Source: Branchiostoma floridae
Taxonomy: Eukaryota > Chordata > Leptocardii > Amphioxiformes > Branchiostomatidae
Assembly (NCBI RefSeq): GCF_000003815.2
Contig: NC_049979.1
Span: 4,229,790-4,293,789 of the forward strand
Reading direction: 5' to 3'
DNA: 64,000 nt
A model generated the notes under the pieces. It was not told where the DNA came from. It was given only the letters and a program-made list of their open reading frames with translations, and ran no database searches. Positions 21,525 through 59,715 of this stretch are shown piece by piece (the first letter of the stretch is position 1; the number at the start of each line of letters is the position of its first letter). Both the position numbers and the translations under genes were made by a program.

Positions 21525-21564
21525 CAAGGACGTTATATGAGATACATATCAGATAACGTCCTTG
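21525..21564. mobile_element. 40-bp palindromic micro-element (CAAGGACGTTAT...ATAACGTCCTTG)
   Basis: Arms of 12 bp plus a partly paired 16-base centre. The flanking 7-mers are atcaaat and attacat (5 of 7 match), compatible with an old target duplication. Both duplication copies carry it (B: 38,771-38,810). Confidence 0.55.
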
Positions 21565-21948
21565 ATTACATCAAGATCATCATGGCCCTCCGTACTTCAG
21601 CTGGTGGGGCGATACCATTATGCAGCAATCGGTCGATTCTATTAATGTATACGAGGAAAAGCATTGTGCCTAGGTTTAACATCATAAGTGATTTGGATGA
21701 AAAATAAATATCTATATTTTTATATCTATCAATAAAAAAGACCTTTTGTAGACAAAAATGAAGCAAAGAAATTTTGTTGTTTTTGCAATTAAAAAAATTA
21801 CCCCCATTCACAAAGTCAGTGCATGACGTACCCGAAGCCTTCTTGCAACAGGTGCTGAATAATTTTTGCCTGATTCTGACACCAGGTGCTGCATAATTTT
21901 TGCCTCATTCTGACACCAGGTGCTGCATAATTTTTGCCTCATTCTGGC

Positions 21949-21975
21949 CAAAGAGCTTTTGATAAAAGCTCCTTG
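21949..21975. mobile_element. 27-bp palindromic micro-element with 7-bp target duplication
   Basis: Arms CAAAGAGCTTTT / AAAAGCTCCTTG (one mismatch). Flanks ttctggc (21,942-21,948) and ttctgac (21,976-21,982) differ at one base. B counterpart: 39,195-39,221. Confidence 0.65.
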
Positions 21976-22465
21976 TTCTGACATGTATCTGACACTCACA
22001 CGCGGCCAAGTCACACTAGCTGCGCATGCACTCCGACGTCTTCCATTTGCTTGGTTTCAGCAAAGGTGAGAAAAGAGTTGTATCTATTCGTTGATTATTG
22101 GAGATATATCGTCAGCAGGGTAATGTTGGGACTAACCATGTGAAGAAATTTCTAATACTACTGAGTCGTTCTCTTTGCCAAAAATTTCACTTCATTGTGA
22201 CGACGCCGTGGCCGGAGCCCCCTGCTTCCAGCTCGTCATGTCATGTCCTACCATGTCCCTATCTAATACTACCCATAGCTGCCCTCTCTATGAATGCAGT
22301 TTAATACGCCCATGGGGTTGTTACGAGGTCAATTTGAAGGGCCACGTCTTCAACTATAAGTTTGGCCGTCTCAACTGCTATATGATGTAAAACTTCACTG
22401 CTGTGGGTAGCTAACAGTAACAAAAATGGCGGGAAAATTGGCCGGCGGCGTACGTTCAATTTTGC

Positions 22466-22494
22466 CAAGGACGTTCTATCAAAGAATGTCCTTG
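22466..22494. mobile_element. 29-bp palindromic micro-element with 8-bp target duplication and empty site in copy B
   Basis: Arms CAAGGACGTTCT / (A)GAATGTCCTTG. The direct repeat aattttgc lies on both sides (22,458-22,465 and 22,495-22,502). Copy B has a single aattttgc at 39,748-39,755 and no palindrome, exactly the expected pre-insertion sequence. Confidence 0.8.
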
Positions 22495-22665
22495 AATTTT
22501 GCCCGCCCAACTTGCTGTTGAATCATGCTCATCTTTTACCGTATTTAAGACCACTTAAAGCACCCAGAACTTCTCCATACTGGCACATATGTATTATTTA
22601 TTCTTTATTTCGTACTTCGTTCAAAAGTACGCACAAACATGCCGCAAACGAACCCATTTGATTTA

Positions 22666-22892
22666 TAAGCCTTCTCACATTAGTTAGAACGCATGTGGGG
22701 CGACAGAAATTCTAGGTAATATGTCAAAGAGTAAGGCACACGAAAAGAAAACAAAACCCGTCTGGACATTGTTATGCAAATCGAAAGAATGGTGAAGACA
22801 AGACTGTTTACTTTTTGTGTGCCTTACCCTTTGACGTACTACCTAGAATTCCTGTCGCTGCACATGCGTTCTAACAAATGCGAGGCGGCTTA
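22666..22892. mobile_element. 227-bp fold-back MITE, TTA target site (PIF/Harbinger-like)
   Basis: Inverted arms of about 80 bp begin TAAGCC and share 'gttagaacgcatgtg' and 'attctaggta'. Flanked by TTA on each side (22,663-22,665, 22,893-22,895). The same element is in copy B at 39,923-40,149. TTA duplications and short G/C-containing ends fit PIF/Harbinger; the class is inference. Confidence 0.65.
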
Positions 22893-23439
22893 TTAGGTCC
22901 CTCAATTAATCAGCACAGGATCAAGCGGATCCCTGAACAGTTTTTTCCGTTTTTCCAAATTCAATTTTCAAGTCATTTTTACACACAGTAAGGTTAAATA
23001 ACACTATCTCATTGCATATCGACCTGCATATCAGATTCAATTCGCTCGGTGACCTCACACGTCGGAAAATCTCCAAAAACGTTAACGTTACATCATCTTA
23101 GGAAAGTTTGAATTTTGTTTATGAAATTGAGTTTTGTTTAGAACTTTTGGGAAGCTATGGCGATTAAGGTTTAAACATCGCATTGGTGTAAAAGTTCCGC
23201 GAAACGACAGTTAACATTTGCATAATGCGGTTGGGATCTGCGTAATTTAGCGTAGAGGGCAAATGAAGCGTCCAGTATTACGTAGTCGGCCCTTCTAGTT
23301 TAGCGTAGAGCGTTGTCGGGACCCCCCATGGGAGTGTTGTCACCTTGGTTTTGTTTTCTGTTGGAATTGCAAGAGCTTGTAATTGTCAAGATGATCATGA
23401 AATACAAATAGATGGAAATTGAAGACATCTCAGTAAGAT

Positions 23440-23640
23440 GATTTTTCCTCACTCCTGTGAAGAAAATATTGTTTTATGTACACTTCATCAGCATAGAACC
23501 AGACTTTGCCCAACTGCTATGTAACTGTTTCTACAGGGCACCTGGGCACCCTACCGACCACCTGTCAGCTTCTCCCTCCTCTCTCCCTGACTGAGGCAGA
23601 GGCAACAGGGGACCACCACACCCGCCCTGGGTGGTTGGCC
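23440..23640 (+). repeat. Dispersed repeat, inverted relative at 26,635-26,820
   Basis: The segments share 'gaaacagttacatagcagttggg', 'ctggttctatgctgatgaagt' and 'ctgacaggtggtc' in opposite orientation. No coding function. Confidence 0.65.
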
Positions 23641-24851: not shown

Positions 24852-25064
24852 TTAGTGTTTGTTGAGAACAACTTTGATTAAATATGATAAATATGTTTGA
24901 ATGCGCAGAACATACATTGTAAGGAGGTGTTGGACAGTTGCAAGTTGATGTTCTTCAGAAGTGAGCAAAACTCTACCCAACCATTGATGGTTAATCTTGT
25001 TCTTTTCAGATCAAAGGTTCTGCAGCAGGCACTACAGGAGTAGAGGCCACATTCCCCTGACGGT

Positions 25065-25099: not shown

Positions 25100-25188
25100 T
25101 ACACGATTGCAAATGACCGGAATACACGATCCAACCAGTCTCCCACACCCGAGGGTTCAGAGGCTCAGGTCAACAGGACAGCCAAGAG

Positions 25189-25373: not shown

Positions 25374-26124
25374 TCTCTCTAACATGTATATGTACTAGTA
25401 TCTCTCTCTCTCTATATATATATATATAATATAAGCGTCGCCCCAGAATGGACTCTCATAAGTCGTTGTTTCAACTACTCATATCTATCGTATCAGTTAC
25501 TCTTAAAGCATGGACTCTCATGTGACTCGTTATAGAAATCTTCTGAGCTGCCCTATAGTCGCATTTTTGACAGGTGAAAAATCTGTCACTTGAATGGATT
25601 CTCATACGTCGTTGTTTCAACTACTCATATCTATCGTATCAGTTACTCTTAGCATGGACTATCATGTGACGTGTTATAGAAATCTTCTAAGCTGCCCTAT
25701 AGTCGCATTTTCACAGGTGAAAGGTCTGTCACCCGAATGGATTCTCATGTCGTTGTTTCAACTACTCATATCTATCGTATCAGTTATTCTTAAAGCATGG
25801 ACTCTCATGTGACGCGTTATAGAAATCGTCTGAGCTGCCCTATAGTCGCATTTTCGACAGGTGAAAGGTCTGTCACCCGAATGGATTCTCATATCCGCCA
25901 CACAGTTATCCATCCGCCACACAGTTGCTAGCTGGTTCCCTGGCCCTTGTCCTTTGTCCTTGCGTTATAGAAATCTTCTGAGCTGCCCTATAGTTGCATT
26001 TTTGGCAGGTGAAAGGTCTGTCACCCGAATGGATTCTCATGTCGTTGTTTCAACTACTCATATCTATCGTATCAGTTACTCTTACCATGGACTCTCATGT
26101 GACGCGTTATAGAAATATTCTGAA

Positions 26125-26375
26125 CTGCTCATTCTCGTACGTTGGGTTAAAACAGATGGCCTCTCACCCGTGTGTTTCCTCCTGTGTTGGGTCAGGTGGT
26201 GTTTATGTGCAGCACGATAATCGCAACCCTCAACGTCACATGTGAAAAGTCTATTCCCCGTGTGTATACTCGTGTCGGGTCAAAGTAGACTTGTATTGTG
26301 TGGTAAACCCGCAGTCCTGGCAGGTATAAACAGCTTGCGGTTGGACATCTTGCTCAGCTTCATGTTTGACGGCCT
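26125..26375 (-). pseudogene. C2H2 zinc-finger terminal exon, frameshifted
   Basis: The minus strand has an acceptor (tcattcatgtag, about 26,375) followed by AVKHEAEQDVQPQAVYTCQD and CGFTTQYKSTLTRHEYTH, then a 2-base loss in 'tatacacacgggg' puts the next finger ([20 protein letters not shown]...) out of frame. The intron-exon border is the same as that of the plus-strand exon at 48,923. It sits inside the antisense satellite. Confidence 0.75.
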
Positions 26376-27484
26376 ACATGAATGACAAATTGATAAAGAC
26401 AATTAGATTCTCATATGTCGTTGTTTCAACTACTCATATCTATTGTATCAGTTATTCTTAGCATGGACTCATGTGACGCGTTATAGAAATCTTCCGAGCT
26501 GCCCTTTAAAGTCGCATTTTTGACAGGTGAAAGGTCTGTCACCCGAATGGATTCTCAAATGTCGTTGTTTCAACTACTCATATCTATCATATCAGTTATT
26601 CTTAGCATGGACTCTCATGTGACGCGTTATAGAAGTTCGGGTGTGGTGGTCCCCTGTTGTCCGCAGCTCTACCTCAGTCAGGCTGGTCAGGGAGAGGGGT
26701 GGTCGGTAGGCTGACAGGTGGTCCGCATGGTGTTGGTGCCCTGTAGAAACAGTTACATAGCAGTTGGGCGAAATCTGGTTCTATGCTGATGAAGTATACA
26801 TAAAACTGAATATCTCCTTAGAAATCTTCTGAGCTGCCCTATAGTCGCATTTTTCACAGGTGAAAGGTCTGTCACCCGAATGGATTCTCATGTCGTTGTT
26901 TCAACTTCTCATATCTATCGTATCAGTTATTCTTGTGTTTCAACTACTCATATCTATCCTATCAGTTACTCTTAGCATGGACTCTCATGTGACTCGTTAT
27001 AGAAATCTTCTGAGCTGCCCTATAGTCGCATTTTTCACAGGTGAAAGGTCACCGTCTGTCACCCGAATGGATTCTCCTGTCGTTGTTTCAACTACTCATA
27101 TCTATCGTATCAGTTATACTTAGCATGGACTATCATGTGAGGCATTATAGAAATCTTCTGAGCTGCCCTATAGTCGCATTTTTGACAGGTGAATGGTCTG
27201 TCACCCGAATGGATTCTCATATCCGCCACACAGTTATCCATCCGCCACACAGTTGCTAGCTAGTTTCCTGGCCCTTGTCCTTGCGTTATAGAAATCTTCT
27301 GAGCTGCCCTATAGTTGCATTGTTGACAGGTGAATGGTCTGTCACCCGAATGGATTCTCATGTCGTTGTTTCAACTACTCATATCTATCGTATCAGTTAT
27401 TCTTAAAACATGGACTCTCATGTGACGCGTTATAGAAATCTTCTGAGCTGCCCTATAGTTGCATTGTTGACAGGTGAAAGGTCA

Positions 27485-27545
27485 CATGTGAATCTTCTCT
27501 CTCTTCTGACTGCCTTGGGCACAGTTTCTTCATCCTAGTACATGA
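27485..27545 (-). pseudogene. Chimeric fragment of the copy A zinc-finger exon start fused to a satellite unit
   Basis: The minus strand reads gtactag followed by GATGAAGAAACTGTGCCCAA, identical to the acceptor and exon start at 28,558-28,584, and joins a 142-bp unit at a shared TTCAC.TGT. The join is out of frame. Confidence 0.7.
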
Positions 27546-27765
27546 ATGGTCACATGTGAATGGATTCTCATGTCGTTGTTTCAACTACTTGTATCTATCG
27601 TATCAGTTACTCTTAGCAAAGGACTCTCAATGTGACTGGCGTTATATAGAAATCATCTGAGCTGCCCTATAGTAATATTTTTGACAGGTGAAAGGTCTGT
27701 CACCCGAATGGGTTTTGGCGCTCTACCGTTTGTGCTGTGGTGATCTCGTTATGACTTCGTTTGCT

Positions 27766-28564: not shown

Positions 28565-28855
<291 letters not shown>

Positions 28856-32661: not shown

Positions 32662-32928
32662 TACATGTATATGTATAACTTTGCGTTTACTACCTTTTGT
32701 ACCAAACTGACTGCATTTAGCCCCAATGGGGCATGAATATGCAATAAATTGTGAATGTTTTATTGCAAATTCATGCCCATTGGGCTAATTGCAAGAGAAG
32801 AAAGACTAAATACATGAAATGAATGAATGTGGTCTAAGTACATGTAGATAAACTAAATTCTAACATACAAATATTAAGTGGATGAACGTACATATGATAC
32901 AGAATAGGGTACTAAGTCTACGTAGCTG

Positions 32929-37130: not shown

Positions 37131-38096
37131 AATCATATGTAATTTACAAAAAAAGACGAGCTTTAACACCTACAAACATTTTACAGCAGTGTGTTTATTG
37201 TCCGGTCCGCACTCTATTCCCGTGCCCGCGACGTTTCCGTGACGTAGGCGAAACCATGATACATGTAAAATGAAAATCGCGAAACTGGTATCCCAGGTTC
37301 CGTAGCTCAGTCGAAGATCTGTCTTCACTCTTTAGATCCAGGGGCCGCAACTTCCTGTGAGGAATCTTGATAGAAGCAGTTCGTTCCATGGACTGTTTAG
37401 TAACCCTTGTTAGAACCCTTGCTAGAACGATTGCGCAACTATTTCAAGATGGCCGAGCGGTCTAATGGTAAGGTTCTGCGTAAAAGACGCAGTCAGTTTC
37501 CGTTTTTTTTCTTTGCTGAACAAATCACATATAATCGTTTTCTTTTCATGTGATTTTAACACCCAGGCTTTTCTAAAATCTTTTTTTGTTCAAAAGGTTT
37601 CTTGTTTCATTTTATATACACAACTCTTTCGTCTTGTGACCAGATCATGGAAACCCAGGATTGGGATTTCTTTATTTTTATTTTCAAACATCCACAACAT
37701 TAAAGTGACGTAAGTTAAACAGAAGATAGAGTTACTTAAATTAAAATAAGTCTATTTCTACGTTTTCTCAATCTTGAACTGGCAGGGTATCAAAATTGTC
37801 ATATTTGATTTGATTTGATTTGATTTATTGAAATTGCAAACGATACAATACATGAGGGACACAGGCAGCGCCACAGCGGTGTGTTGGTGTTGTGGCCCTC
37901 AAAATGTCACATGAATACATAACATACATTCTCATATTTCCACCAGGTGCCATTATACCGCCACCTAAAAAATGTTGTTATAGAGGCCTTCTCAAGATTG
38001 TCTTCAACACCTAAACATCTGAATTGTATTACATTTAAGATATTTAGCATTCGGTGTTCAAGACAATCTTGTGAAGACCTCTTTACTGACGTTTTT

Positions 38097-38455
38097 TTGA
38101 GGTGGCGGTATAATGACACCCGGTGGAATTATGATAGTCGATGTTACATACATATCAATTGATACAATTATTAAAATACAATAATTGAATACAATCTAAA
38201 ATTACAAATACATCATATAAATCTAGCCTCAGTTTTCTAGGTATCAATCAGTCAGTCCAGTTTGCCAGCCTCTGTTTAAACACACTGAGACTGCCAGCTT
38301 GCTTTATGGCCTGGGGCAGTTCGTTCCAGAGGCGGGAAGCGTGCGGAAGGAAGCTTGGTTGATAAGTTTGGGTCCTGCAGCGTGGTATGTGGAGATGGGT
38401 GGAGTTGCGAAGCCGTAGGCGTGTGGTTCTGTGCTCACCTATTGTGTCACAAAAT
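38097..38455 (-). pseudogene. 3' end of a CR1/L2-like LINE (copy B)
   Basis: Same C-terminal RT fragment and 3' terminus as 15,636-15,990, with one or two substitutions. Here it directly follows the fold-back core, without the 7-kb insertion seen in A. Confidence 0.7.
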
Positions 38456-38770
38456 TTACTAATCTTTACACAAGAAAAAATTTTCCACTACAAAGTCAGG
38501 CCTTGTGTCATTCAACGATATAAGCAACTTCATCTTTATTAACGATTTCATATCTTACATACATCGCATCCCATCATGATGTATTCCTCAACTGACCACC
38601 ACTCAGAAAATCCTTTTAGAAGGCGAAAGTGGCAGCTTTTTTTAGAAGCACTTGTTTTCAATTTACGGCATATATTGGACATTCTACAACTGCTTTGTAC
38701 GATTTACAGTATGGTCGATAACTTCCTCTTTCATTTTTAGAAACGGCCGAAAATTGGTGTCTAATCAAAT

Positions 38771-38810
38771 CAAGGACGTTATATGAGATACATATCAGAT
38801 AACGTCCTTG
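38771..38810. mobile_element. 40-bp palindromic micro-element (copy B ortholog)
   Basis: Counterpart of 21,525-21,564, unchanged. Confidence 0.55.
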
Positions 38811-39194
38811 ATTACATCAAGATCATCATGGCCCTCCGTACTTCAGCTGGTGGGGCGATACCATTATGCAGCAATCGGTCGATTCTATTAATGTATACAA
38901 GGAAAAACATTGTGCCTAGGTTTAACATCATAAGTGATTTGGATGAAAAATAAATATCTATATTTTTATATCTATCAATAAAAAAGACCTTTTGTAGACA
39001 AAAATGAAGCAAAGAAATTTTGTTGTTTTTGCAATTAAAAAAATTGCCCCCATTCACAAAGTCAGTGCATGACGTACCCGAAGCCTTCTTGCAACAGGTG
39101 CTGAATAATTTTTGCCTGATTCTGACACCAGGTGCTGCATAATTTTTCCCTGATTCTGACACCAGGTGCTGCATAATTTTTGCCTCATTCTGGC

Positions 39195-39221
39195 CAAAGA
39201 GCTTTTGATAAAAGCTCCTTG
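39195..39221. mobile_element. 27-bp palindromic micro-element (copy B ortholog)
   Basis: Counterpart of 21,949-21,975 with the same flanking ttctg[g/a]c repeats. Confidence 0.6.
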
Positions 39222-39922
39222 TTCTGACATGTATCTGACACTCACACGCGGCCAAGTCACACTAGCTGCGCATGCACTCCGACGTCTTCCATTTGCTTGG
39301 TTTCAGCAAAGGTGAGAAAAGAGTTGTATCTATTCGTTGATTATTGGAGATATATCGTCAGCAGGGTAATGTTGGGACTAACCATGTGAAGAAATTTCTA
39401 ATACTACTGAGTCGTTCTCTTTGCCAAAAATTTCACCGTCAGAGTGACGACGCCGTGGCCGGAGCCCCCTGCTTCCAGCTCGTCATGTCATGTCCTACCA
39501 TGTCCCTATCTAATACTACCCATAGCTGCCCTCTCTCTGAATGCAGTTTAATACGCCCATGGGGTTGTTACGAGGTCAATTTGAAAGGCCACGTCGGGAA
39601 CTATAAATTTGGCCGTCTCAACCGCTATATAATGTAAAACTTCACTGCTGTGGGTGGCAGTCTCAACCGCTATATGATGTAAAACTTCGCTGCTGGGGGT
39701 AGCAAACAAAAATGGCGAGAAAACAAGTTGGCCGGCGGCGTACGTTCAATTTTGCCCGCCCAACTTGCTGTTGAATCATGCTCATCTTTTACCGTATTTA
39801 AGACCATTTAAAGCACCCAGAACTTCTCCATACTGGCACATATGTATCATTTATTCTTTATTTCGTACTTTCAGCGTTCAAAAGTACGCACAAACATGCC
39901 GCAAACGAACCCATTTGATTTA

Positions 39923-40149
39923 TAAGCCTTCTCACATTAGTTAGGACGCATGTGGGGCGACAGAAATTCTAGGTAATATGTCAAAGAGTAAGGCACACGA
40001 AAAGAAAACAAAACCCGTCTGGACATTGTTATGCAAATCGAAAGAATGGTGAAGACAAGACTGTTTACTTTTTGTGTGCCTTACCCTTTGACGTACTACC
40101 TAGAATTCCTGTCGCCGCACATGCGTTCTAACAAATGCGAGGCGGCTTA
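39923..40149. mobile_element. 227-bp TTA-flanked fold-back MITE (copy B ortholog)
   Basis: Counterpart of 22,666-22,892, same ends and same TTA flanks. Confidence 0.65.
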
Positions 40150-40609
40150 TTAGATCCCTCAATTAATCAGCACAGGATCAAGCGGATCCCTGAACAGTTT
40201 TTTCCGTTTTTCCAAATTCAATTTTCAAGTCATTTTTACACACAGTAAGGTTAAATAACACTATCTCATTGCATATCGACCTGCATATCAGATTCAATTC
40301 GCTCGGTGACCCCACACGTCGGAAAATGTCCAAAAACGTTAACGTTACATCGTCTTAGGAAAGTTTGAATTTTGTTTATGAAATTGAGTTTTGTTTAGAA
40401 CTTTTGGGAAGCTATGGCGATTAAGGTTTAAACATCGATCGCATTGGTGTAAAAGTTCCGCGAAACGACGGCTAAGATTTGCATAATGCGGTTGAGATCT
40501 GCGTAATTTAGCGTAGAGGGCAAATGAAGCGTCCAGTATTACGTAGTCGGCCCTCCTGGTTAATCTTGTTATTTTCAGATCAATAAACCAGTCTATGTAT
40601 AACTATAAA

Positions 40610-40775
40610 GGTCAAACAACGTGCAAACAGAACGTTGGGCTGACAATTTCTGTGTAGAGATATATTGCAACTTTGATGTACCTCATCTAATTGTCTTTAT
40701 CAATTTGTCATTCATGATGTAGGCCGTCGAACATGAAGCTGAGCAAGATGTGCAGCAGGGGCACTACAGGAGTAG
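40610..40775 (+). pseudogene. Truncated zinc-finger exon start
   Basis: Carries the intron end shared with 28,440-28,560 and 48,800-48,920 and an acceptor (cattcatgatgtag, to 40,721), then AVEHEAEQDVQ, and breaks off into an unrelated 'ggcactacaggagtagag' repeat. Confidence 0.6.
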
Positions 40776-40837
40776 AGAGGCCACAACACCAGTCTCCCAC
40801 ACCCGAGGTTCAGAGGCTGAGCACAACAGGACAGCCA

Positions 40838-40905
40838 AGAGGCAAAGGTACTCGAGCATCAGGCATTTATAATTCTTGGCCGTGACTCACACCTAGTTAT
40901 TTCCT

Positions 40906-40961
<56 letters not shown>

Positions 40962-41046
40962 CATGTGTATATAAGGTAAGGAAACAACGAGGTGTGAGTC
41001 ACGACCAAAGAAATATAAATGCCTGATGCTCGAGTACCTTTGCCTC
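40838..41046. mobile_element. Fold-back MITE with (TA)n centre
   Basis: Arms as at 25,189-25,373; the centre (about 40,912-40,957) is an AT microsatellite. Confidence 0.65.
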
Positions 41047-41537
41047 TCTCTCTCTTTCTCTCTCTCTCTAACATGTAGGTCTGTCACCCGAATGGACTCT
41101 CATATGTCGTTGTTTCAACTACTTGTATCTATTGTATCAGTTACTCTTAAAGCATGGACTCTCATGTGACGCGTTATAGAAATCTTCTAAGCTGCCCTAT
41201 AGTCGCATTTTTGACAGGTGAAAGGTCTGTCACCCGAATGAATTCTCATGTCGTTGTTTCAACTACTCGCATCTATCGTATCAGTTACTGTTAGCATGGA
41301 CTCTCATGTGACGCGTTATAGAAATCTTCTGAGCTGCCCTATAGTCGCGTTTTTGACAGGTGAAAGGTCTGTCACCCGAATGGATTCTAAAAGGTCGTTG
41401 TTTCAACTTCTCATGTGTCTATCGTTTCAGTTATTCTTAGCATGTGACTCTCATGTCTCCTTGGTGTACTGTACTGATTGTGTGGGGAGACAACGCAATC
41501 ACTGCTTCATTTCATAAATCCTCATGTGACGTATAAT

Positions 41538-41567
41538 CAAGGAGCTTTTATTGATAAAAGCTCCTTG
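41538..41567. mobile_element. 30-bp palindromic micro-element with perfect 7-bp target duplication
   Basis: Arms CAAGGAGCTTTTAT / ATAAAAGCTCCTTG with a 2-base centre. Flanked by gtataat at 41,531-41,537 and 41,568-41,574. It sits in a satellite unit at the 'gtgacgcgttatag' position. Confidence 0.75.
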
Positions 41568-41811
41568 GTATAATGGATATTTTCTGGGCTGCCCTATAGT
41601 CGCATTTTTGACAGGTGAAAGGTCTGTCACCCGAATGAATTCTCATGTCGTTGTTTCAACTACTCGCATCTATCGTATCAGTTACTGTTAGCATGGACTC
41701 TCATGTGACGCGTTATAGAAATCTTCTAAGCTGCCCTATAGTAGAATAGAAGCCTGCTAGTTGCTTTCTTTGGTACTGCAGTGGTATCTTATTCAGTGAT
41801 ATCATAGTTAC

Positions 41812-41879
41812 CTCGGGCTCCTCCAAAATGGTATCTTCCACCTCTGCATCATCAGCATCATCGTCAGATTCCTCTGTCA
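41812..41879 (-). CDS. Exon 4 of acidic N-terminus, putative zinc-finger gene
   Basis: 68 nt between acceptor ...tttatcag and donor gtaact. With the one base left from exon 3 it reads VTEESDDDADDAEVEDTILE then EPE and ends in phase 0. It is strongly acidic (activation- or histone-binding-type composition). Phase 0 equals the phase of the zinc-finger exons at 28,565 and 48,923. The next exon on this strand is unclear: the sequence runs into satellite units, and acceptor candidates near 41,790 and 41,768 give only short frames. Confidence 0.7.
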
Positions 41880-42083
41880 CTGATAAAAGATTCCATCAAA
41901 ATCTTATGTTAGACATTCATCTATATGTCATTCTTACACTTAATGCTTTAACGATTTCAATGCGCAAGTATATCATGCATTATATTATTCACCAAGTATG
42001 AGGTATCTATCCATCAAATTATTATTAGAACTAGAACTCTATTGTGCTAGATATGGCCATACTCTGTTGCTATGACAACCCAC

Positions 42084-42116
42084 CTGTCTCTTCTGCTAAA
42101 GCTTCTTTGGTCTTGT
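42084..42116 (-). CDS. Exon 3 (33 nt) of the same gene
   Basis: Acceptor ...gcccgcag, donor gtgggt. It reads DKTKEALAEET across the borders (first Asp codon split with exon 2). Entry and exit phase are both 1, so the micro-exon is symmetric and could be skipped without a frameshift. Confidence 0.7.
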
Positions 42117-42236
42117 CTGCGGGCCTCAGGAATACCTTTCAAACTACCTGAAGCAGTGAATGCACCATTCCTTTTATAATGAGGTAATGTATTCAGAACT
42201 GTACATGCAGGCACAGGGGTGGAACAGTGAACGTAC

Positions 42237-42300
42237 CTGGTGTGTCCTCAGCTGCAGTTAGCTCTTTTTCTAGTATCTGCAACATCTTAGTCAGCAAGGG
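42237..42300 (-). CDS. Exon 2 (64 nt) of the same gene
   Basis: Acceptor ...ttccattacag, donor gtacgt. It reads PLLTKMLQILEKELTAAEDT then P, an amphipathic helix by its heptad-like hydrophobic spacing (L, M, I, L). Enters in phase 0 and leaves in phase 1. Confidence 0.72.
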
Positions 42301-42821
42301 CTGTAATGGAAAACTAGTCAGCTTATGAAAATCCCACAACTGGGCTTGTGTTATTCTTATATATTATTGTGGCATCTCGAGTTATGTTATTCACAGCCAA
42401 ACTCACGTAAATATAATGCTCACTGCAGCAGTGAGAAAAAGTCAGATCAACCAAACTTAACCTTCCTTTTTACAAACACTACACTCCTACATATCACTGA
42501 TATCCACGTACAACTTCGAAATATGTTGTTTAATACAAACACTAAAAAATACAACGCGCGCTGCAGTACCAATGAACCTTCTCGCGTTCTGAAACCCCCA
42601 AAGACTGATCAATGAATCTTCCTACTCTCTTGACAGCACTGTTTTTGACAGTCTCCATTTGTTACCTTTCAGAAATGCAGGAAATTTGCCATTTCAGAGG
42701 GTTGAATTTTCACAATTCCTGGGGACACCGTTGAAAGCTTGCACATTCTTTGCTCGCTGCCCCACAAAATTTACACACAAAAAACATTCTGGCCAGCATT
42801 GCATGGGGGAGGATCACTTAC

Positions 42822-42884
42822 CTCTGGGTTGTCTTCTTCCAATGCAGCCTTCACGAGTCTTGTCAGCTTTCTCACTGTGGCCAT
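42822..42884 (-). CDS. Exon 1 (63 nt, start codon) of the acidic N-terminus gene
   Basis: The ATG at 42,884 (context gaaagATGG, with G at +4) opens MATVRKLTRLVKAALEEDNP then E, and meets a consensus donor gtaagt in phase 0. A possible acceptor (ttaatgcag) lies 4 bases before the ATG, so a 5' UTR exon is likely upstream. The four exons join without a frame error into 76 residues: a basic-hydrophobic helix, a second helix, and an acidic tail. Each alone is too short to stand out as an ORF. I infer that this is the N-terminal part of the local C2H2 zinc-finger family; no known domain is recognised. Confidence 0.72.
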
Positions 42885-45589
42885 CTTTCTGCATTAATCA
42901 ATGAAATTAAAGTTATGAATGCTTGATGAGTATAACTCTTCTCTTTCCAACAAATTGAATTTTTTCCACAGATGTACAAATGTTAATAACATACTAGTTA
43001 GGGTTTTGTACAGAATGTCCAGAACAACGTGACAGGGTTGGACATCTTGCTATCGTATCAGTTACTCTTAGCATGGACTCTCATGTGACGCGTTATAGAA
43101 ATCTTCTGAGCTGCCCTATAGTCGCATTGTTGACAGGTGAATGGTCTGTCACCCGAATGATTCTCATGTCGTTGTTTTCATCTACTCGCATCTATCGTAT
43201 CAGTTACTGTTAGCATGGACTCTCATGTGACGCGTTATAGAAATCTTCTGAGCTGCCCTATAGTCGCATTTTTGACAGGTGAAAGGTCTGTCACCCGAAT
43301 ATATTCTCAATTGTCCTTGTTTCAACTACTCTCATCTATCGTATCAGTTATTCTTAGCATGGACTCTCATGTGATGCGTTATAGAAATCTTCTGAGCTGC
43401 CCTATAGTCGCATTTTTGAAAGGTGAATGGTCTGTCACCCGAACTTGGATTCTTACTAAAGCATAAAACAGCAGTGCATTTCAACACCGATTTCAACAAT
43501 TAAAAATGAAGCAATACTTCTGAACAATCATTGAACAAACATCTCCATGTTTTAGTCCTCCTCTGTCCGCCTTCATCCATCCGCCACACAGTTGCTAGCT
43601 AGTCCCCTGGCCCTTGGTGTAAAACTGTACTGATTGTGTGGGGAGACAATACAATCACTTCCTTATTGCATGAACCCGCATGTGACGCGTTATAGAAATC
43701 TTCTGGCATCTATCGTATCAGTTATTCTTAGCATGGACTCTCATGTGACGCGTTATAGAAATCTTCAGCTGCCCTATAGTCGCATTTTTGACAGGTGAAT
43801 GGTCTCTCACCCGAATGATTCTCATGTCATTGTTTCAACTACTCGCATCTATCGTATCAGTTATTCTTAGCTTGGACTCTCATGTGACGCGTTATAGAAA
43901 TCCTCTAAGCTGCCCTATAATCGCATTTTTGACAGGTGAATGGTCTCTCACCCGAATGATTCTCATGTCATTGTTTCAACTACTCGCATCTATCGTATCA
44001 GTTATTCTTAGCTTGGACTCTCATGTGACGCGTTATAGAAATCCTCTAAGCTGCCCTATAATCGCATTTTTGACAGGTGAATGGTCTCTCACCCCAATGG
44101 ATTCTCATGTCGTTGTTTCAACTACTCGCATCTATCGTATCAGTTATTCTTAGCTTGGACTCTCATGTGACGCGTTATAGAAATCCTCTAAGCTGCCCTA
44201 TAATCGCATTTTTGACAGGTGAATGGTCTCTCACCCCAATGGATTCTCATGTCGTTGTTTCAACTACTCGCATCTATCGTATCAGTTATTCTTAGCATGG
44301 ACTCTCATGTGACGCGTTATAGAAATCTTCTGAGCTGCCCTATAGTTGCATTTTTGACTGGTGAATGGTCTCTCACCCAAATTAATTCTCATGTCGTTGT
44401 TCCAACTATTCGCATCTATCGAATCAGTTATTCTTAGCTTGGACTCTCATGTGACGCGTTATAGAAATCTTGAGCTGCCCTATAGTCGCATTTTTGACAG
44501 GTTAAAGGTCTGTCACCCGAATGGATTCTCATGTCGTTGTTTCAACTGCTCATTTCTATCGTATCTGTTACTCTTAGCATGGACTCTCATGTGACGCGTT
44601 ATAGAAATCTTCTGAGCTGCCCTATAGTTGCATTTTTGACTGGTGAATGGTCTCTCACCCAAATTAATTCTCATGTCGTTGTTCCAACTATTCGCATCTA
44701 TCGAATCAGTTATTCTTAGCTTGGACTCTCATGTGACGCGTTATAGAAATCTTGAGCTGCCCTATAGTCGCATTTTTGACAGGTTAAAGGTCTGTCACCC
44801 GAATGGATTCTCATGTCGTTGTTTCAACTGCTCATTTCTATCGTATCTGTTACTCTTAGCATGGACTCTCATGTGACGCGTTATAGAAATCTTCTGAACT
44901 GCTCATTCTCATACGTAGTTTATTGAATGACCTTTAAAAACAACAATAAAATAACTTAATAAAGCATAAAACACTGCATTTCAACACCAATTTCAATAAT
45001 TAAAAATCTGCCCGATTCTGTACAAACAAGCTAAAAATCTTCTGGGCTGCCCTATAGTTGCATCTTTGACAGGTCACCCGAATGGATTCTATATATCCAT
45101 CCGCCACACAGTTCCTAGCTGGTTCCCTGGCCCTTGTCCTGTGTCCTTGCGTTATAGAAATCTTCTGAGCTGCCCTATAGTCGCATTTTGACGGGTGAAG
45201 GGTCTGTCACCCGAATGGATTCTCATGTCGTTGTTTCAACTACTATCGCATCAGTTACTCTTGAAGCATGGACTCTCATGTGACACGTTACAAAAAATCT
45301 TCTGAGCTGCATGCCCTATAGTCGCATCTTTGACAGGTGAAAGGTCTCTCACCCGAATGGATTGTCATATCCGCCACACAGTTATCCATCCGCCACACAG
45401 TTGCTAGCTGGTTCCCTGGCCCTTGTCCTGTGTCCTTGCGTTATCGAAATCTTCTGAGCTGCCCTATAGTTGCATTTTTGGCAGGTGAAAGGTCTGTCAC
45501 CCGAATGGATTCTCGTGTCGTTGTTTCAACTACTCATATCTATCGTATCAGTTAACTCTTACCATGGACTCTCATGTGACGCGTTATAG

Positions 45590-45858
45590 AAATATTCTGA
45601 ACTGCTCATTCTCACACGTTGGGTTAAAATAGATGGCCTCTCACCCGTGTGTTTCCTCCTGTGTTGGGTCAGGTGGTGTTTATGTCCAGCACGATAATCG
45701 CAGCCCTCAATGTCACATGTGAAAGGTCTATTCCCCGTGTGTATACTCGTGTCGGGTCAAAGTAGATTTGTTGTGTGGTAAACCCGCAGTCCTGGCAGGT
45801 ATAAACAGCTTGCGGTTGGACATCTTGCTCAGCTTCATGTTTGACGGCCTACATGAAT
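45590..45858 (-). pseudogene. C2H2 zinc-finger terminal exon, frameshifted (copy B array)
   Basis: Same acceptor (cattcatgtag) and AVKHEAEQDVQPQAVYTCQD start as 26,375; frame lost in the first finger by a 4-base deletion ('acacaacaaatctac'). Downstream finger remnants are visible in another frame. Confidence 0.72.
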
Positions 45859-46984
45859 AAGATAAAGACAATTAGATTCTCATATGTCGTTGTTTCAACT
45901 ACTCATATCTATTGTATCAGTTATTCTTAGCATGGACTCTCATGTGACGCGTTATAGAAATCTTCCGAGCCGCCCTTTAGTCGCATTTTTGACAGGTGAA
46001 AGGTCTGTCACCCGAATGGATTCTCAATTGTCGTTGTTTCAACTAGTCGCATCTATCGTATCAGTTATTCTTAGCATGGACTCTCATGTGACGCGTTATA
46101 GAAATCTTCAGCTGCCCTATAGTCGCATTTTTGACAGGTGAATGGTCTCTCACCCGAATGATTCTCATGTCATTGTTCCAACTACTCGCATCTATCGTAT
46201 CAGTTATTCTTAGCTTGGACTCTCATGTGACGCGTTATAGAAATCCTCTAAGCTGCCCTATAATCGCATTTTTGACAGGTGAATGGTCTTTCACCCCAAT
46301 GGATTCTCATGTCGTTGTTTCAACTACTCGCATCTATCGTATCAGTTATTCTTAGCATGGACTCTCATGTGACGCGTTATAGAAATCTTCTGAGCTGCCC
46401 TATAGTCGCATTTTCACAGGTGAAAGGTCTGTCACCCGAGTGGATTGTCATGTCGTTGTTTCAACTACTCATATCTATCGTATCAGTTATTCTTAGCATG
46501 GACTCTGATGTGACGCGTTATAGAAATCTTCTGAGCTGCCCTATAGTCGTATTTTTGACAGGTGAATGGTCTGTCACCCGAATGGATTCTCATATCCGCC
46601 ACACAGTTATCCATCCGCCACACAGTTGCTAGCTAGTTCCCTTGCCCTTGTCCTGTGTCCTAGGTGTACTGTACTGATTGTGTGGGGAGACAACACAATC
46701 ACTTACTTATTGCATGAACCCGCATGTGACGCGTTATAGAAATCTTCTGAGCTGCCCTATAGTCGCATTTTTGTCAGGTTAAAGGTCTGTCACCTGAATG
46801 ATTCTCAATTGTCGTTGTTTCAACTACTCGCATCTATCGTATCAGTTATTCTTAGCATGGCCTCTCATGTGACGCGTTATTGAAAACTTCTGAGCTGCCC
46901 TACTGCCCTATAGTCCCATTTTTGACAGGTGAAAGGTCTGTCACCCGAATTGATTCTAATATGTCGGGATAAAACATTACATCT

Positions 46985-47222
46985 AAATGGCCTCTCACCC
47001 GTGTGTTTCCTCCTGTGTTGGGTCAGGTGGTGTTATGTCTAGCACGATAATCGCAGCCCTCAACGTCACATGTAAAAGGTCTATTCCCCGTGTGTATACT
47101 CCTATGTCTGACCAATGCACATTTGTACAGTGTGCTGAATCCGCAATCTTGGAAGGTATGGCGCTTTGGATTTACAGCTTCCGGTTGGACATCTTGCTGA
47201 GCTTGCAGTTTAACATCTTGCT
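46985..47222 (-). pseudogene. Further decayed zinc-finger exon
   Basis: The minus strand has QAQQDVQPEAV-like sequence and finger remnants ('cacacggggaatagaccttt', 'tgtgacgttgagggctgcga'), more diverged than 45,590-45,858. Its left part joins the satellite. Confidence 0.6.
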
Positions 47223-48122
47223 ATCGTATCAGTTACTCTTAAAGCATGGACTCTCATGTGACGCGTTATAGAAATCTTCTGAGCTGCGCTATAGTCGCAT
47301 TTTTGTCAGGTGAAAGGTCTGTCACCCGAATGGATTCTCAATTGTCCTTGTTTCAACTACTCGCATCTATCGTATCAGTTATTCTTAGCATGGACTCTCA
47401 TGTGACGCGTTATAGAAATCTTCCGAGCTGCCCTATAGTAGCATTTTGGACAAGTTAAAGGTCTGTCACCCGAATGATTCTCATGTCGTTGTTTCAACTA
47501 CTCGCATCTATCGTATCAGTTATTCTTAGCATGGACTCTTATGTGACGCGTTATAGATATCTTCTGAGCTGCCCTACTGCCATATAGTCGCATTTTGACG
47601 GGTGAAAGGTCTGTCACCCGAAGTTGAATTCTCATATGTCGTTGTTTCAAGTTCAACTACTCGCATCTATCGTATCAGTTATTCTTAGCATGGACTCTCA
47701 TGTGACGCGTTATAGAAATCTTTTGAGCTGCCCTACAGTCGCATTTTTGACAGGTGAAAGGTCTGTCACCCGAATGGATTCTCATGTCGTTGTTTCAACT
47801 ACTCGCATCGATCGTATCAGTTATTCTTAGCATGGATTCTCATGTGACGCGTTATAGAAATCTTCTGAGCTGCCATATAGTCGCATTTTTTACAGGTGAA
47901 TGGTCTCTCACCCGAACTTGGATTCTCGTATGTCGTTGTTTCAACTTACTCGCATCTATCGTATCAGTTACTCTTAGCATGGACTCTCATGTGACGCGTT
48001 ATAGAAACCTTCTGAGCTGCCCTATAGTCGCCTTTTTGACAGGTGAAAGGCACAGTGTCACCAGAATGGGTTTTGGCGCTCTCCGTTTGTGCTGTGGTGA
48101 TCTCGTTATGACTTCGTTTGCT

Positions 48123-48392
48123 TCAATAAAGGGGGGAGAATCTTCTAATATCTGATCTGTGTTTTTTCAAGGTGATATTTTCTAATGTTTGTCCAGGGTG
48201 ACGAGGCAGGTCAAAGCCCCCACCAAGGAAAAAGATTAGTCTTGCTTCAGGGATCCTCCCATCGTCCACTCCGTGCAGCGCCCAGACCACTCCTGTAACT
48301 GTCAGGACACTCAGCACCAAAATGCAGAAAAGAGCGGCAAGGTAATATTGTATCAAGAACCTTTTTTTGTCAATTATGTGCGTAATAGACAA
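48123..48392 (-). CDS. Possible small single-pass membrane protein (copy B)
   Basis: Paralog of 27,766-28,032. Shared from DKKRFLIQYY to RRFSPLY; residues before that differ (MSITHII against MPSRAI). Predicted type II topology. Status as a gene is uncertain. Confidence 0.35.
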   Translation of the reverse strand: MSITHIIDKKRFLIQYYLAALFCILVLSVLTVTGVVWALHGVDDGRIPEARLIFFLGGGFDLPRHPGQTLENITLKKHRSDIRRFSPLY

Positions 48393-48922
48393 GGAAACTT
48401 CTCCTCAAGATAATACATGTATCTTTGTTCTGCCATCTCTGTGTTTTATCGAATAAAGAAAGATTCAAGTATGAGGACATTACCTGTCACATCTGCTTTT
48501 GTGCTGCCAATTGTTTGATGAATCACCAACACCCAATACCTTGAAGTTGGGGCAAACCCAGTACATTGGCCTGCCAAAACCCCAGATGTATTCAGGGCCA
48601 AAAAGGGTGGCCGACCTTTCACACCTTTTTCCCTCTCTCTCTCTCTTTTGTTACCATTTTTTTGCACCACCACCACCTGCTACCGTTCACCTACCTGGTT
48701 GGGATACCCAAATAGGGTTTTGACCAGTATGTATAGGTAGATAGATATGAGTAGTTGAAACAATTTAGCAGTTGAAGGCATCTTATTTATGGTATAACTC
48801 TCCATGTTAAACAACGTGCAAACAGAACGTAACCGTAATGGGCTGACGATTTCTGTGTAGAGATATATTGCAACTTTGATGTACCTCATCTAATTGTCTT
48901 TATCAATTTGTCATTCATGTAG

Positions 48923-49662
48923 GCCGCCGAACATCAGCAAGATGTCCAAGCAGAAGTTGTTCCAAGAGGAAAACAACAAACCTGCTATGACTGTGGGTTT
49001 ACCACACAAGTCCACCCGGGGAATAGACCTTATATATGTGACGTGGCTGGTTGGGACTACAGGGCTGCACAAAAACATCACCTGACTGTAGCCTCCATAG
49101 CAGGCTCTCTGGGGCTTTTTTTGGGCTCATAATACACTTTTGCTGGCCATTTTTATTTGTACTGGGTCGCTGATTGCTGGCCTTTTNNNNNNNNNNNNNN
49201 NNNNNNNNNNNNNNNNNNNNNNNNNNNNNNNNNNNNNNNNNNNNNNNNNNNNNNNNNNNNNNNNNNNNNNNNNNNNNNNNNNNNNNATAGAAATGGTCAG
49301 CAAAAGTGTATTATGAGCCCAAAATAAGCCCCAGAGAGCCTGCTATGGAGGCTAACCTGACTGTACACATAAGAAAACACACGGGTGAGAGGCCATTCAC
49401 ATGTGAGCAGTGCGGCTATACCGCAGCACAGAAAGCTGTTTTAACCAGACACATGAGAATCCATTCGGGTGAGAGACCATTCACCTGTGACAGATGTGAT
49501 TATAGGGCAGCCCAGAAAATATCCAGTAGACGTCACAGGAGGATTCATGAATCAGTACAGTACACCAAGGACACAGTACAAGGGCCAGGGAACTGTTTGG
49601 CAGATGGAAGAAGGCATCACAGAGGAAGACTAAAACATGGAGATGGTTGTTCAGAAATATGA
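48923..49662 (+). pseudogene. C2H2 zinc-finger terminal exon (copy B), split by a MITE
   Basis: After acceptor cattcatgtag the phase 0 frame reads AAEHQQDVQAEVVPRGKQQT. The first finger has lost its C-terminal half (CYDCGFTTQVH then PGNRPY). The second, [19 protein letters not shown], has Trp in place of its second Cys. It is then cut by a transposon (49,089-49,354). After it the frame continues [20 protein letters not shown] and a last finger (FTCDRCDYRAAQKISSRRHR), both with full C2H2 sets, and ends in a 37-residue tail at 49,662. The insert brings in an in-frame stop (TGTAGCC...), so a full product is not expected. The 3' UTR runs to AATAAA near 49,853. Confidence 0.82.
49089..49354. mobile_element. 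MITE with inverted ends of about 70 bp and 9-bp target duplication, inside the zinc-finger exon
   Basis: Ends TAGCCTCCATAGCAGGCTCT (left) and its complement (right, to 49,354) match over about 70 bp with very few differences. The duplicated target acctgactg is at 49,080-49,088 and 49,355-49,363. A 9-bp duplication suits a Mutator-like transposase. The centre is an N-run (49,187-49,286; 100 N, so its true length is unknown). Confidence 0.9.
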
Positions 49663-50254
49663 TTGTTCAGAAGTATTGTTTCATTTTTTTGTATCTGTAT
49701 ATTCTGTATCTATAACCGCCGTTCAGCGTAACACACCAGCTTCGCAGCTTGTTTGTACAGAATCGGGCAGCTTTTTAATTGTTGAAATCGGTGTTGAAAT
49801 GCAGTGTTTTATGCTTTATTAAGTTATTTTATTGTTTTTTAAAGGTCATTCAATAAAGATTGAATAAAAACTGAAGCTTCTGGAGAAGTATTATTATTGT
49901 AACAGTAGTCTGTACTCCAATAAATAAACTAGAGTTAAGCATATGTTGCTGCGCATACTTACAGGTTCAAGGGAAATTGTAACTAGGTAATGATGTAGGC
50001 AGGTGTGAACATATACAGCACCAGCAGTGAGCATTGGACTGTCCAACCCGAAAAGCCCCTTCTGCAGTAAGAAGTGAACTGTCCCGTCGAGAACAGTCCC
50101 TCCTGAAGGGAGAAATGGACTGTACCTGTCTAAACAGTCCCTCTTGTAGTATGAAATGGATTGTCCCCACCTGAACAACCCCTCTTGCATACATGTCATA
50201 CATTTGTGCGTTTATGAAAGACATCCAGGTAAACAATATCCAATGCTGTCATCG

Positions 50255-52024: not shown

Positions 52025-52029
52025 TATTT

Positions 52030-53160: not shown

Positions 53161-53162
53161 TT

Positions 53163-56600: not shown

Positions 56601-57120
56601 CTAGCCGCTAGGGGGCCCAAACTTATGTCACCAACTCCTGAGCACAACAGCTATCTAACACCCAAAACACGTGGCCATACCATGTTCAGAAGATGGAAAA
56701 ACACACCCGGAAGTTGCGCTGCAGTACCAAGGGAAGCCGCCAGGGGGCCCATCATCGAACTCCCCCTTCGTTTCCCAGACCCCTACCCACCCACCAAATA
56801 CCAGCTGCATCCGTCGAAGTCTTCTCGAGTTATGCTGTCCGCGGACAAAAGTTTGCAATTAAACCGGCGCCTGCACTTCCATGAAAGCCGCTAGGGGGCC
56901 CAAACTCGCAGCAATCACTCCCTGCTTTAAGGGCTCCCTAACGCTCAAAAATCACGACCGCAGCATGTCCGGAACGCGAGATATCAAGCATGCAGGTCCT
57001 GCTGCAGTACCTTAGCAAGCCGCTAGGAGGCCCATTATCGAACTCGACCTTCGTCTTCCACACCCCTACCCACCCACCAAATATCAGCTGCATCCATCGA
57101 AGTCCTCTCGAGTTATGCTG
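53655..57120 (-). repeat. Cluster of a dispersed repeat carrying CTCF-like cores
   Basis: Related segments (plus-strand reading) at about 53,660-53,890, 55,490-55,670, 56,155-56,240, 56,560-56,860 and 56,885-57,125 share blocks: 'gc.gctagggggccc', 'cttcgtttcccagaccccta', 'cccacccaccaaatat' and 'ctcgagttatgctg'. The order of blocks is kept but copies are truncated differently. Frames across them (for example GGWVGVWETK on the minus strand) recur because of the repeat; I do not call genes. Confidence 0.75.
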
Positions 57121-57199
57121 CTCACAAACGGGGAGAACCACACCACCAAACCGAAAACATAACCTTAGCCATTCTGGCAAAGGTAATTATGTACAGTTG

Positions 57200-59070
57200 C
57201 TACAGTAAACAGAAATGTTCACAAAACATTCTCAAATAGACCAATATAGTATTTTTACAGAGATGCAATGACAACAACAAACATTATTTAAGTTTGCCTC
57301 TAGAAATAAAATACCATTGCTGGAAGACTTATTTGCTCTCTGAGTTGATAAGAATCTGTCTATCCAAGGCTCTAAATACATTTCATGGTCAACTGGTGCA
57401 AATTGGAAACAAAATTACAAATACTTCCACTCCCCAAAAATACATGAACAAGCCAAAGTACTGAACTACATGTTGTATAAAACCATAGGTTTATTTTCTC
57501 TTTTTGTTACATGTACAATTATTTGTTGACAAATAATTAAGATGCAGTTTGATAAAACTTCCTTAGAAAAACCTAATGTTACATGCAATCACTGAAATCA
57601 GCACTGAAGGTAGCAGAACACAGTATTAGTGGGCGAACCCCGGGGAGTATGACGCGGGTACATAAAATAGTACGGATAAACTTGTTGAAGGAGAGGTAAA
57701 AAGCCTTATTTGAGGGGCAGCCAGATATAACCTGTGCTACGTGGTCACGGAAGGTGTCGACTCTGAGACTGCATGGTTTGGATGGTGAAAGTTTTCTATT
57801 TTGTGTATAAATGCGCCCCATTACGCGACTGCCCTTCTAGCGTGAGTCGGCTGCAGTTCTGTGACCTCCGCAGAGGGGCATTTCAAAGAGGGCGTGAGAA
57901 GACGATACGCCGACAGTATTTTTTTGTTTTTTAATATATTGTGGCTTGTACCTTCAACTCAAACATATCCGATTTTAGTATTCCAAAAGTGCACCCTACT
58001 ATACTTTTCATTGCGTCGAAGCTAGTCACCTTGAGGCCCTTAACTATAGAAATCCCCATAGGCCGAAAACTGTGTTCTGCTACCTTGAAGGGCAATGACC
58101 CTAATTGACGGCTGCGCAGAAGGTCCCCGGTGAGTCCCCTCAGGATTGATTTTTAAAAGTATCAGAAGATGTGTTTTTCTTTGGAAATGTTGGCATCTTG
58201 GAGCTGTATTCTACAGGTAAGGGTTGTAGGTTTTTTATTATGTCGAAAAAAACAGACTTTCAAGCCTGTTTTGGGTGCCTGGACACTAGAAAGAAGTTTG
58301 TTATGTAGCTGTCATTGTAGTGCCAGATGGGGTCAAAGGTCACCGAGTTGCGTTTGGATGCAAATCACATGTGTTCCAGTGGTCAGAAAGTTCCGAAAAG
58401 TTGAGAATGGACATTTTAGAAGCCGGGCTACCCTCTCAATGTTAGTTTTTCGAGAACGAAACGTCAGGTAGGTGACTTTTGACAGCTTCTATTTGCCATT
58501 AAATGCATTATAAGGATAGGGAAGACATGATTGGTGGTCACTGCTCTGAAATGGTACTACATGTGTCTAGCCAAATCTGCAGTTCCACTAGAAACAGCGT
58601 GGGGGCGCTTTTTTGACTTGCAGGGTCAAAACAAAGCTGAAGAAGAAAGATGGCCGCCCGGGAAAATGTCCGACTTCATTTTCATCTCCATTTGGAAGGC
58701 TTTGGGCATTTCAGGCATATCAAAACATGTTGGCTATGGAGGTACAAGAGTGAAAAAGTATTGATGATTTATTGAGTTGTTTGTTTGGGTGCCGATTTCT
58801 GTGTTTCAATTGAAAATTTGCATGTGAAAGTATGTGAGAGAGAGAGCACATGCTCAGCTGAACTTCTGGTTCTGTTACGTTATGTTATGCCCATGTGTAT
58901 CTCATTTTACGATGATTTATTTGTTCCTAAATATACTTTGCAACAAAAAAGATATGAATCAATTTGTAACAAAGGACTTGGGGATGAGAAAAAGTAAATG
59001 CACTGGTACTTTCCAGACGTTCTGTTTCTCTAACGGAACCAAAGTTTTGCAGCACGATTTTTTTACTGAA
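57200..59070. other. No gene recognised
   Basis: Several donor-like strings (58,207 'acaggtaagg', 58,466 'cgtcaggtaggt') but no exon chain with consistent phase. The 80-residue minus frame at 57,579-57,821 and the 100-residue plus frame at 58,169-58,471 have no recognised motif. Confidence 0.35.
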
Positions 59071-59084
59071 CGGATTTTTTTTTT

Positions 59085-59155
59085 TTTTTAAATTGGGAAA
59101 ATTTGAAGCGGCGATTCCGAGAACCAACTTATTAAATTGGTGTGGCCTTAATGTA
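59085..59155 (-). mobile_element. SINE tail fragment
   Basis: The minus strand reads 'ggccacaccaatttaataag' then 'ttggttctcggaatcgccgc', the tail seen at 8,257-8,295 and 53,170-53,230, followed by a long T-run (A tail on the element strand, 59,075-59,091). Confidence 0.65.
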
Positions 59156-59691
59156 TATCCCCTTATAAGAGCCAATTAAAATGTATACATTTGGTCAGTT
59201 TCTGGTCTATTAATGTTTATTTGAGCACCCTCATGTCACTCGTGACGTCAGCTTCAGACAATCAACACGCCCACCTAAACTAATCAAACGTTGTTTTCCC
59301 CGCTCCGTCGGGTAACGGCCATACCCAGCTCGCATCAGGCAGACACCAGTGCAACACGAGGACTGAAGTTGGGTAGGGATGGGGAAAAACAGATATTATG
59401 TACTTTGTAGAATCGTGATGCGTAATTTGTAATTCTTAGTTGTCCTGTCGTACTTCATAACAAGGCTATAATGTATTCTGTCTGAGGAGAGCGTCTGCTA
59501 TTGTTGTGTGATTAGTGCCAACGGGGTGTTACCTTTTGTTCTATCCTTTGAAGTAATGTGCATCAAAGAACAACAAAGCCAATAGCAGGTACATGTTATA
59601 ATTAGTGCCATATAGCGGTAGACGGTGTCTGGATGTGTGTCTGGGATTCTGAATAAAGAAAGCCGGGAGTTGGAAGTTGGGACAGTTGGAC

Positions 59692-59715
59692 CAAGGAGCT
59701 GATAAAAGCTCCTTG
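59692..59715. mobile_element. 24-bp palindromic micro-element with perfect 7-bp target duplication
   Basis: Arms CAAGGAGCT / AGCTCCTTG around gataaa. Flanked by gttggac at 59,685-59,691 and 59,716-59,722. It is far from the duplication, so it is an independent insertion of the same family as 41,538. Confidence 0.75.

Follow-up and report, generated by a model that had tools for sequence, protein, structure and literature searches.

What are the short palindromes that begin with CAAGGA and end with TCCTTG in the lancelet Branchiostoma floridae, and how did they come to lie between direct repeats? The question arises from a stretch of 64,000 nucleotides (contig NC_049979.1, positions 4,229,790 to 4,293,789; hereafter the window), in which an earlier note had described them as ultra-short transposons moved by a hAT-like enzyme. 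We found that they are better read as the end-joined remains of two 17-nucleotide (nt) ends, that is, as excision scars of a P-superfamily transposon, each left by one lost insertion, a reading to which we assign a probability of about 93%. We read them in this way because their arms correspond to the outermost 17 nt of 31-bp transposon ends, because the Drosophila P transposase cuts at that position, and because published repair junctions match those seen here. The several thousand scars in the genome are most likely a natural record of how the lancelet genome joins broken DNA.

Palindromes and their target duplications

All seven copies that had been reported at five sites are present, namely a palindrome at each of the five sites and two counterparts in a second copy of part of the window, here called copy B. 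The features, read as above, are listed by window position; "strand." means that no strand is assigned.

17596–17621, strand., probable excision scar, 26 bp, with diverged arms; ATCCAAC at 17589–17595 and 17622–17628
21525–21564, strand., likely excision scar, 40 bp, sub-type CAAGGACGTT; flanks match at 5 of 7 positions
21949–21975, strand., likely excision scar, 27 bp, sub-type CAAGGAGCTT; repeats TTCTGGC and TTCTGAC (6 of 7)
22466–22494, strand., likely excision scar, 29 bp, sub-type CAAGGACGTT; perfect 8-bp repeat AATTTTGC at 22458–22465 and 22495–22502; absent from copy B
38771–38810, strand., copy-B counterpart of the 21525 scar
39195–39221, strand., copy-B counterpart of the 21949 scar
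39748–39755, strand., empty target site in copy B with a single AATTTTGC; counterpart of 22458–22502
41538–41567, strand., likely excision scar, 30 bp, made of 16 and 14 nt of the 17-nt ends; GTATAAT at 41531–41537 and 41568–41574
59692–59715, strand., likely excision scar, 24 bp, made of a 17-nt arm and a 9-nt arm with a 2-nt overlap; GTTGGAC at 59685–59691 and 59716–59722

The exact end pattern matches five times in the window against 0.24 expected, and none of 100 shuffles reached five. When we scanned without reference to the motif (8-bp arms differing at no more than one position, a length of 60 bp or less, and perfect 7–8 bp direct repeats), we obtained four hits, three of them from the CAAGGA family, compared with 0, 0, 0, 1, 1, and 0 in six Markov-sampled controls. 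Together with the re-paired flanks described below, these controls speak against a chance origin. The direct repeats are as the earlier note described them: three are perfect, AATTTTGC (8 bp), GTATAAT (7 bp), and GTTGGAC (7 bp), and the flanks agree at six of seven positions at 21949 and five of seven at 21525. A further scan for CAAGGA-like and TCCTTG-like pairs with perfect 7–8 bp repeats, tolerating one mismatch per end and spacings of up to 12 kb, gave four hits, all of 24–30 bp, and added the site at 17596–17621 with its perfect ATCCAAC repeat to those already known. Inspection by eye suggests that the ATATCAG in the centre of the 21525 palindrome was possibly copied from its arm.

Many scars carry a target duplication of their own, and for one in the window the other copy shows the site empty. 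Window regions 21390–23300 and 38636–40561 are 98% identical in aligned columns, and copy B is exactly without the palindrome at 22466, the 37-bp difference between them being fully accounted for by the 29-bp palindrome and a single 8-bp repeat. The palindrome at 41538 lies inside one unit of a 142-bp tandem array; of 26 alignments across its junction, only that of the occupied unit with itself contains the insert. Two of the 25 without it are weaker and lie on the opposite strand near 49.4–49.6 kb.

Beyond the window, we searched its own assembly (513,431,437 bases in 431 contigs), where CAAGGA and TCCTTG separated by 4–34 nt occur 6,770 times compared with 854 times for the reversed control. 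A first sample, comprising the window and 50 loci picked for holding such palindromes (L001–L050; 292,577 bases in all), contained 22 CAAGG...CCTTG pairs with perfect 7-bp repeats and spans of 15–40 bp, one of which (L016) does not have the family ends; such repeats were absent from all 1,688 pairs spaced by more than 60 bp in this sample. Across 38 sites with stronger arms, flank agreement was 0.77 at length 7 and 0.22–0.34 at lengths 4–6 and 8–11, with perfect 7-bp repeats at 18 sites and at most one mismatch at 25, against a mean of 0.53 perfect repeats and a maximum of 4 when flanks were re-paired. The 16 weaker-arm sites show little (one perfect, two with at most one mismatch). These figures bear out the proposal that the sites were made by a transposase with target duplications. 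The 18 perfect repeats have the consensus GTNNNAC. The claimed 7–8 bp repeats exist, and by the register test in the genome sample their length is 7 bp, the 8-bp repeat at 22466 being an exception. Eleven longer palindromes (L071–L081) include eight with perfect 7-bp repeats, one with a single mismatch, and two (L073 and L075) with three and five mismatches.

Several candidates were set aside or merged in the course of this survey. A 67-bp repeated sequence was dropped as a set of separate insertions, because the seven copies read share their flanks and so form part of a longer repeat; L062 and L063 likewise represent one duplicated place; and a relaxed enumeration (28 real against 2–20 in shifted controls) was not usable, tandem arrays inflating both. 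L004 and L005, which lie in paralogous stretches with about 80% identity, have different centres at what seems to be one target; this is suggestive only.

Target duplications at many unrelated sites are also what ultra-short transposons would produce, that is, palindromes of 24–40 bp moved in trans by a transposase that recognises CAAGGA ends only. Such units would be copies of one another, but all 38 stronger-arm sequences are distinct on the + strand (L035 and L045 are mutual reverse complements), and palindromes with perfect duplications go down to 15–16 bp. The earlier note had distinguished two sub-types of end; we see at least three (GCTT, GGTT, and ACGTT), and have a parent element in hand for one of them.

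Long parents and the 17-nt boundary

The earlier note had raised the existence of longer elements with the same ends and a transposase, and these do occur. Allowing up to three mismatches, so that ends diverged further would be missed, the 31-bp end of the GCTT sub-type matches 88 places in the genome (control 0), which form 39 facing pairs and leave 10 ends unpaired. The prevailing spacing is about 1.19 kb (1178–1210 bp in 33 pairs), and the other pairs measure 271, 1371, 1547, 2152, 4111, and 8442 bp; the duplication check left out the flanks of the 271, 1371, 2152, and 4111-bp pairs. Among six pairs whose flanks were read (L082 in full, five others at their ends), five have perfect 7-bp duplications, one of them within a CA repeat, and the sixth has one mismatch. 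The terminal repeat extends to about 31 bp in the six long copies read at their ends. L082, the one long copy whose entire sequence was read, has a 12-bp subterminal inverted repeat with 100% complementarity, whose right-hand copy is also visible in L114; the longest listed frame of L082 is 114 amino acids (aa).

PF21787 (TNP-like RNase H), which from its name we take to be a P-element-type model, has three matches in the genome. One of them (C19:10311853–10312299, E 2.2e-20, in a 767-aa open frame) falls within the 8,442-bp pair at C19:10308832–10317273, whose 31-bp ends are identical and whose 7-bp duplication, CTCTAAC, is perfect. This pair holds a predicted P-type transposase gene. A scan for terminal inverted repeats plus target-site duplications was negative in the 3.4-kb loci that surround the three transposase matches, a span too short for an element of 8.4 kb. 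The GCTT parent has several of the features by which the P superfamily is recognised: a GT..AC-like duplication of 7–8 bp, 31-bp ends starting with CA, subterminal repeats of 11–12 bp, and a P-type transposase.

These observations bear on the enzyme that the earlier note had favoured. CA...TG ends and a T2/A6-type target are also features of hAT elements, which would fit scars or miniature elements (MITEs) of hAT type. The transposase-bearing element, however, carries a P-type RNase H domain, which speaks against hAT for the GCTT sub-type; the duplication is 7 bp by the register test, with the 8 bp typical of hAT seen at window site 22466 alone; and excision of a hAT element would not be expected to retain 17 nt at each end. 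We therefore give next to no credence to a hAT origin, although no search of the genome for hAT transposases was made.

The boundary between scar and parent emerges from the GCTT junctions. The pattern CAAGGAGCTTTTATC, 0–30 nt, GCTCCTTG occurs in the genome 303 times on the forward strand and 304 times on the reverse strand (control 0), and since a place with two long arms is counted on both strands, this corresponds to between about 300 and 607 places. Our junction set is the first 70 places listed, all of them transcribed and two of them in the window, with arms scored against CAAGGAGCTTTTATCAG. Their 140 arms include 46 that extend to 17 nt and 32 that extend to 16 nt. The full 17-nt arm is followed by ten different dinucleotides, many of which are the start of the facing arm. 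The 70 places represent 39 strand-free forms, joined by overlap in 22 cases, bluntly in 16, and with an insert in 32; forms ending in ...TATCAA rather than ...TATCAG also fit, by eye, 17 nt plus 2, 3, 4, or 8 nt plus 17 nt. The junction of the 59692 scar occurs at three of the 70 places, itself counted, and the 21949 scar is one substitution away from a junction found at two.

Because the scoring reference is only 17 nt long, it is the divergence of the sequence beyond it that tests the boundary. Genome-wide, the 17-mer occurs 729 times (352 + 377, control 0), whereas the whole 31-bp end has the 88 matches given above. Eighteen of the first 20 unpaired 17-mers on C1 diverge directly past nt 17; of the other two, L097 continues straight as the parent end does, and L110 repeats part of the arm before parent sequence. 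Seven of the 18 diverging ends lie in one amplified repeat, leaving about 12 independent contexts; in several of the 18 the second arm is shortened or lost. The 31-bp end thus runs past nt 17 in long copies and, with few exceptions, does not in palindromes. As a separate observation, a solo 17-nt arm stands in identical flanks at seven C1 places (L093, L094, L095, L099, L102, L104, and L112, in 89-bp stretches), probably a scar later multiplied within another repeat.

If long elements had instead lost their interior through replication slippage or abortive gap repair, with no cut at nt 17, both ends and the target duplication would likewise remain, and one GCTT scar (C1:3569083) does keep 31 nt of one end. 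Nothing in slippage would make it halt at nt 17, yet 18 of 20 unpaired ends diverge there, and C1:3569083 is the one arm noticed to continue like the parent among the 140 transcribed. We regard this explanation as scarcely credible.

The same junctions speak against mobile palindromes as the main account. It is true that junctions recur, one 31-mer being found at 13 of the 70 places. Set against this are the 39 forms among those places, arms that stop at nt 17 of a 31-bp end that long elements show whole, and a centre copied from its own flank: in the scar at L080, 19 nt derive from the right flank, as expected for repair at that place. In addition, the recurrent GCTT forms fit blunt joins or overlaps of 1–2 nt, apart from one 31-mer (six places, 1-nt insert) and one 37-mer (two places). 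On the GCTT junction spectrum and the 31-bp parents we dropped this account, which we now consider highly improbable.

Proposed excision pathway and its misfits

Taken as excision scars, the palindromes would arise as follows. The transposon would insert with a target duplication of 7 bp, occasionally 8 bp, favouring GTNNNAC. On excision, the transposase would cut one strand at the tip of the element and the other strand 17 nt within the 31-bp terminal repeat, an offset that we infer from scar boundaries only, so that 17 nt of either end would stay on the chromosome as 3′ tails. Host end joining would then unite the two inverted tails through overlaps of a few nt, after trimming, or with short inserts, some of them templated by adjacent sequence. 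The product would consist of two copies of the duplication enclosing at most 17 nt from one end and at most 17 nt from the other, and would look like a palindrome of about 15–40 bp. The GGTT and ACGTT sub-types would behave in the same way as GCTT; the arms of three GGTT copies (L074, L077, and L078) are, by eye, about 17 nt long.

The Drosophila P transposase cuts 17 nt inside a 31-bp repeat and leaves 17-nt 3′ tails (PMC7776569), and its excision products show an 8-bp repeat, as many as 17 nt from each end, and overlaps, blunt joins, or inserts (Table 1, PMC2895639). The lancelet palindromes resemble those products in their duplication, in keeping at most 17 nt of each inverted end, and in their few-nt overlaps, blunt joins, and short inserts, whereas the Drosophila products differ in their 8-bp duplication, in the letters of their ends, and in coming from a laboratory assay in Rad51-deficient (spn-A) flies (PMC2895639). 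The P element itself shares with the lancelet parent the 31-bp ends, short internal inverted repeats, a P-type transposase, and a 17-nt cut, which in the lancelet would follow from the scars; it differs in its 8-bp duplication and in its length, 2.9 kb as against 8.4 kb for the lancelet transposase-bearing element (PMC7776569). Galileo, of the P superfamily, has a duplication of 7 bp and occasionally 8 bp with the consensus GTATTAC/GTANTAC, near the lancelet GTNNNAC, but its terminal repeats are far longer and it was described in Drosophila (PMC4168063). The zebrafish Pdre2/THAP9 element resembles ours in being P-like, in coming from an animal, and in having short terminal repeats along with subterminal ones of 12 bp, but its terminal repeats measure 13 bp and its duplication 8 bp (PMC10983969, a preprint).

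This comparison suggests that the lancelet element shares the 17-nt offset of the P transposase. In the literature cited here, P-element excision products were obtained from laboratory crosses in batches of dozens; those in the lancelet have the same shape and number in the thousands in one genome. The listings and abstract openings of the open-licence literature searched name no genome-wide record of P-type scars. The scars would provide a large natural sample of end-joining outcomes (overlap, blunt, and filler) from one defined break. For repeat annotation they also carry a warning: target duplications around a palindrome do not by themselves show it to be a mobile element.

Several observations weigh against the scar reading, above all outside the GCTT sub-type. 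A 37-bp GGTT sequence is identical at all nine places of its first 24 nt, and these nine copies have nine different 7-bp flanks, eight with perfect duplications and one with a single mismatch, as ultra-short transposons would; to explain the form as 17 nt + CAC + 17 nt requires the same 3-nt filler nine times. A genome search with the GGTT 24-mer returned no long parent, and no parent was found for either the GGTT or the ACGTT sub-type, the dedicated search covering the GGTT 24-mer only. By eye, the matching arms of the GGTT copies L071, L080, and L081 are about 19–26 nt long. The GCTT scar C1:3569083 continues through nt 31 of the parent end, a read-through that needs partial gap repair. The test for copying from flanks is weak over 35 sites, with a mean longest match of 5.63 against 5.06 in 300 re-pairings (largest 5.54), and the count of sites with a flank match of at least 9 nt, one, is not unusual against a re-pairing mean of 0.49 and maximum of 3. 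On the transposase side, PF21787 was the sole match in a Pfam scan of the 713-aa and 651-aa stretches, which gave no THAP or GTP-binding model, and a search with one transposase frame matched no solved structure by sequence.

The misfits could come from a favoured repair path, from sub-types with other cut offsets, or from partial gap repair. We also considered that fused ends such as the 37-bp GGTT form are themselves cut and reinserted in trans, so that scars seed the smallest known DNA transposons; we think this unlikely, if less so than the other alternatives weighed above.

Other features of the window

The two copies of the scar-bearing region belong to longer collinear stretches at window positions 5600–30293 and 37147–50253, about 91–99% identical in the ten aligned blocks examined and set apart by multi-kb segments found in the first stretch only; they are perhaps uncollapsed haplotypes or a recent duplication. 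Two segments without a copy-B counterpart contain open frames. On the + strand, 18012–21077 contains a 1021-aa frame with matches to Helitron_like_N, DUF6570, STPR repeats, and a herpes-tegument-like N-terminal domain. On the − strand, 9106–14504 contains LINE-type frames, one with endonuclease and reverse transcriptase (1164 aa) and one with a zinc knuckle (629 aa). Arrays of the approximately 142-bp repeat occupy 41077–48069 and 25442–27711, and their reverse strand looks, by eye, like zinc-finger linker sequence. The window also holds other near-perfect short palindromes that lack CAAGGA ends, one running from GCATTTTGCCGC to GCGGCAAAATGC at 8523–8550 and another of 50 bp at 32729–32778.

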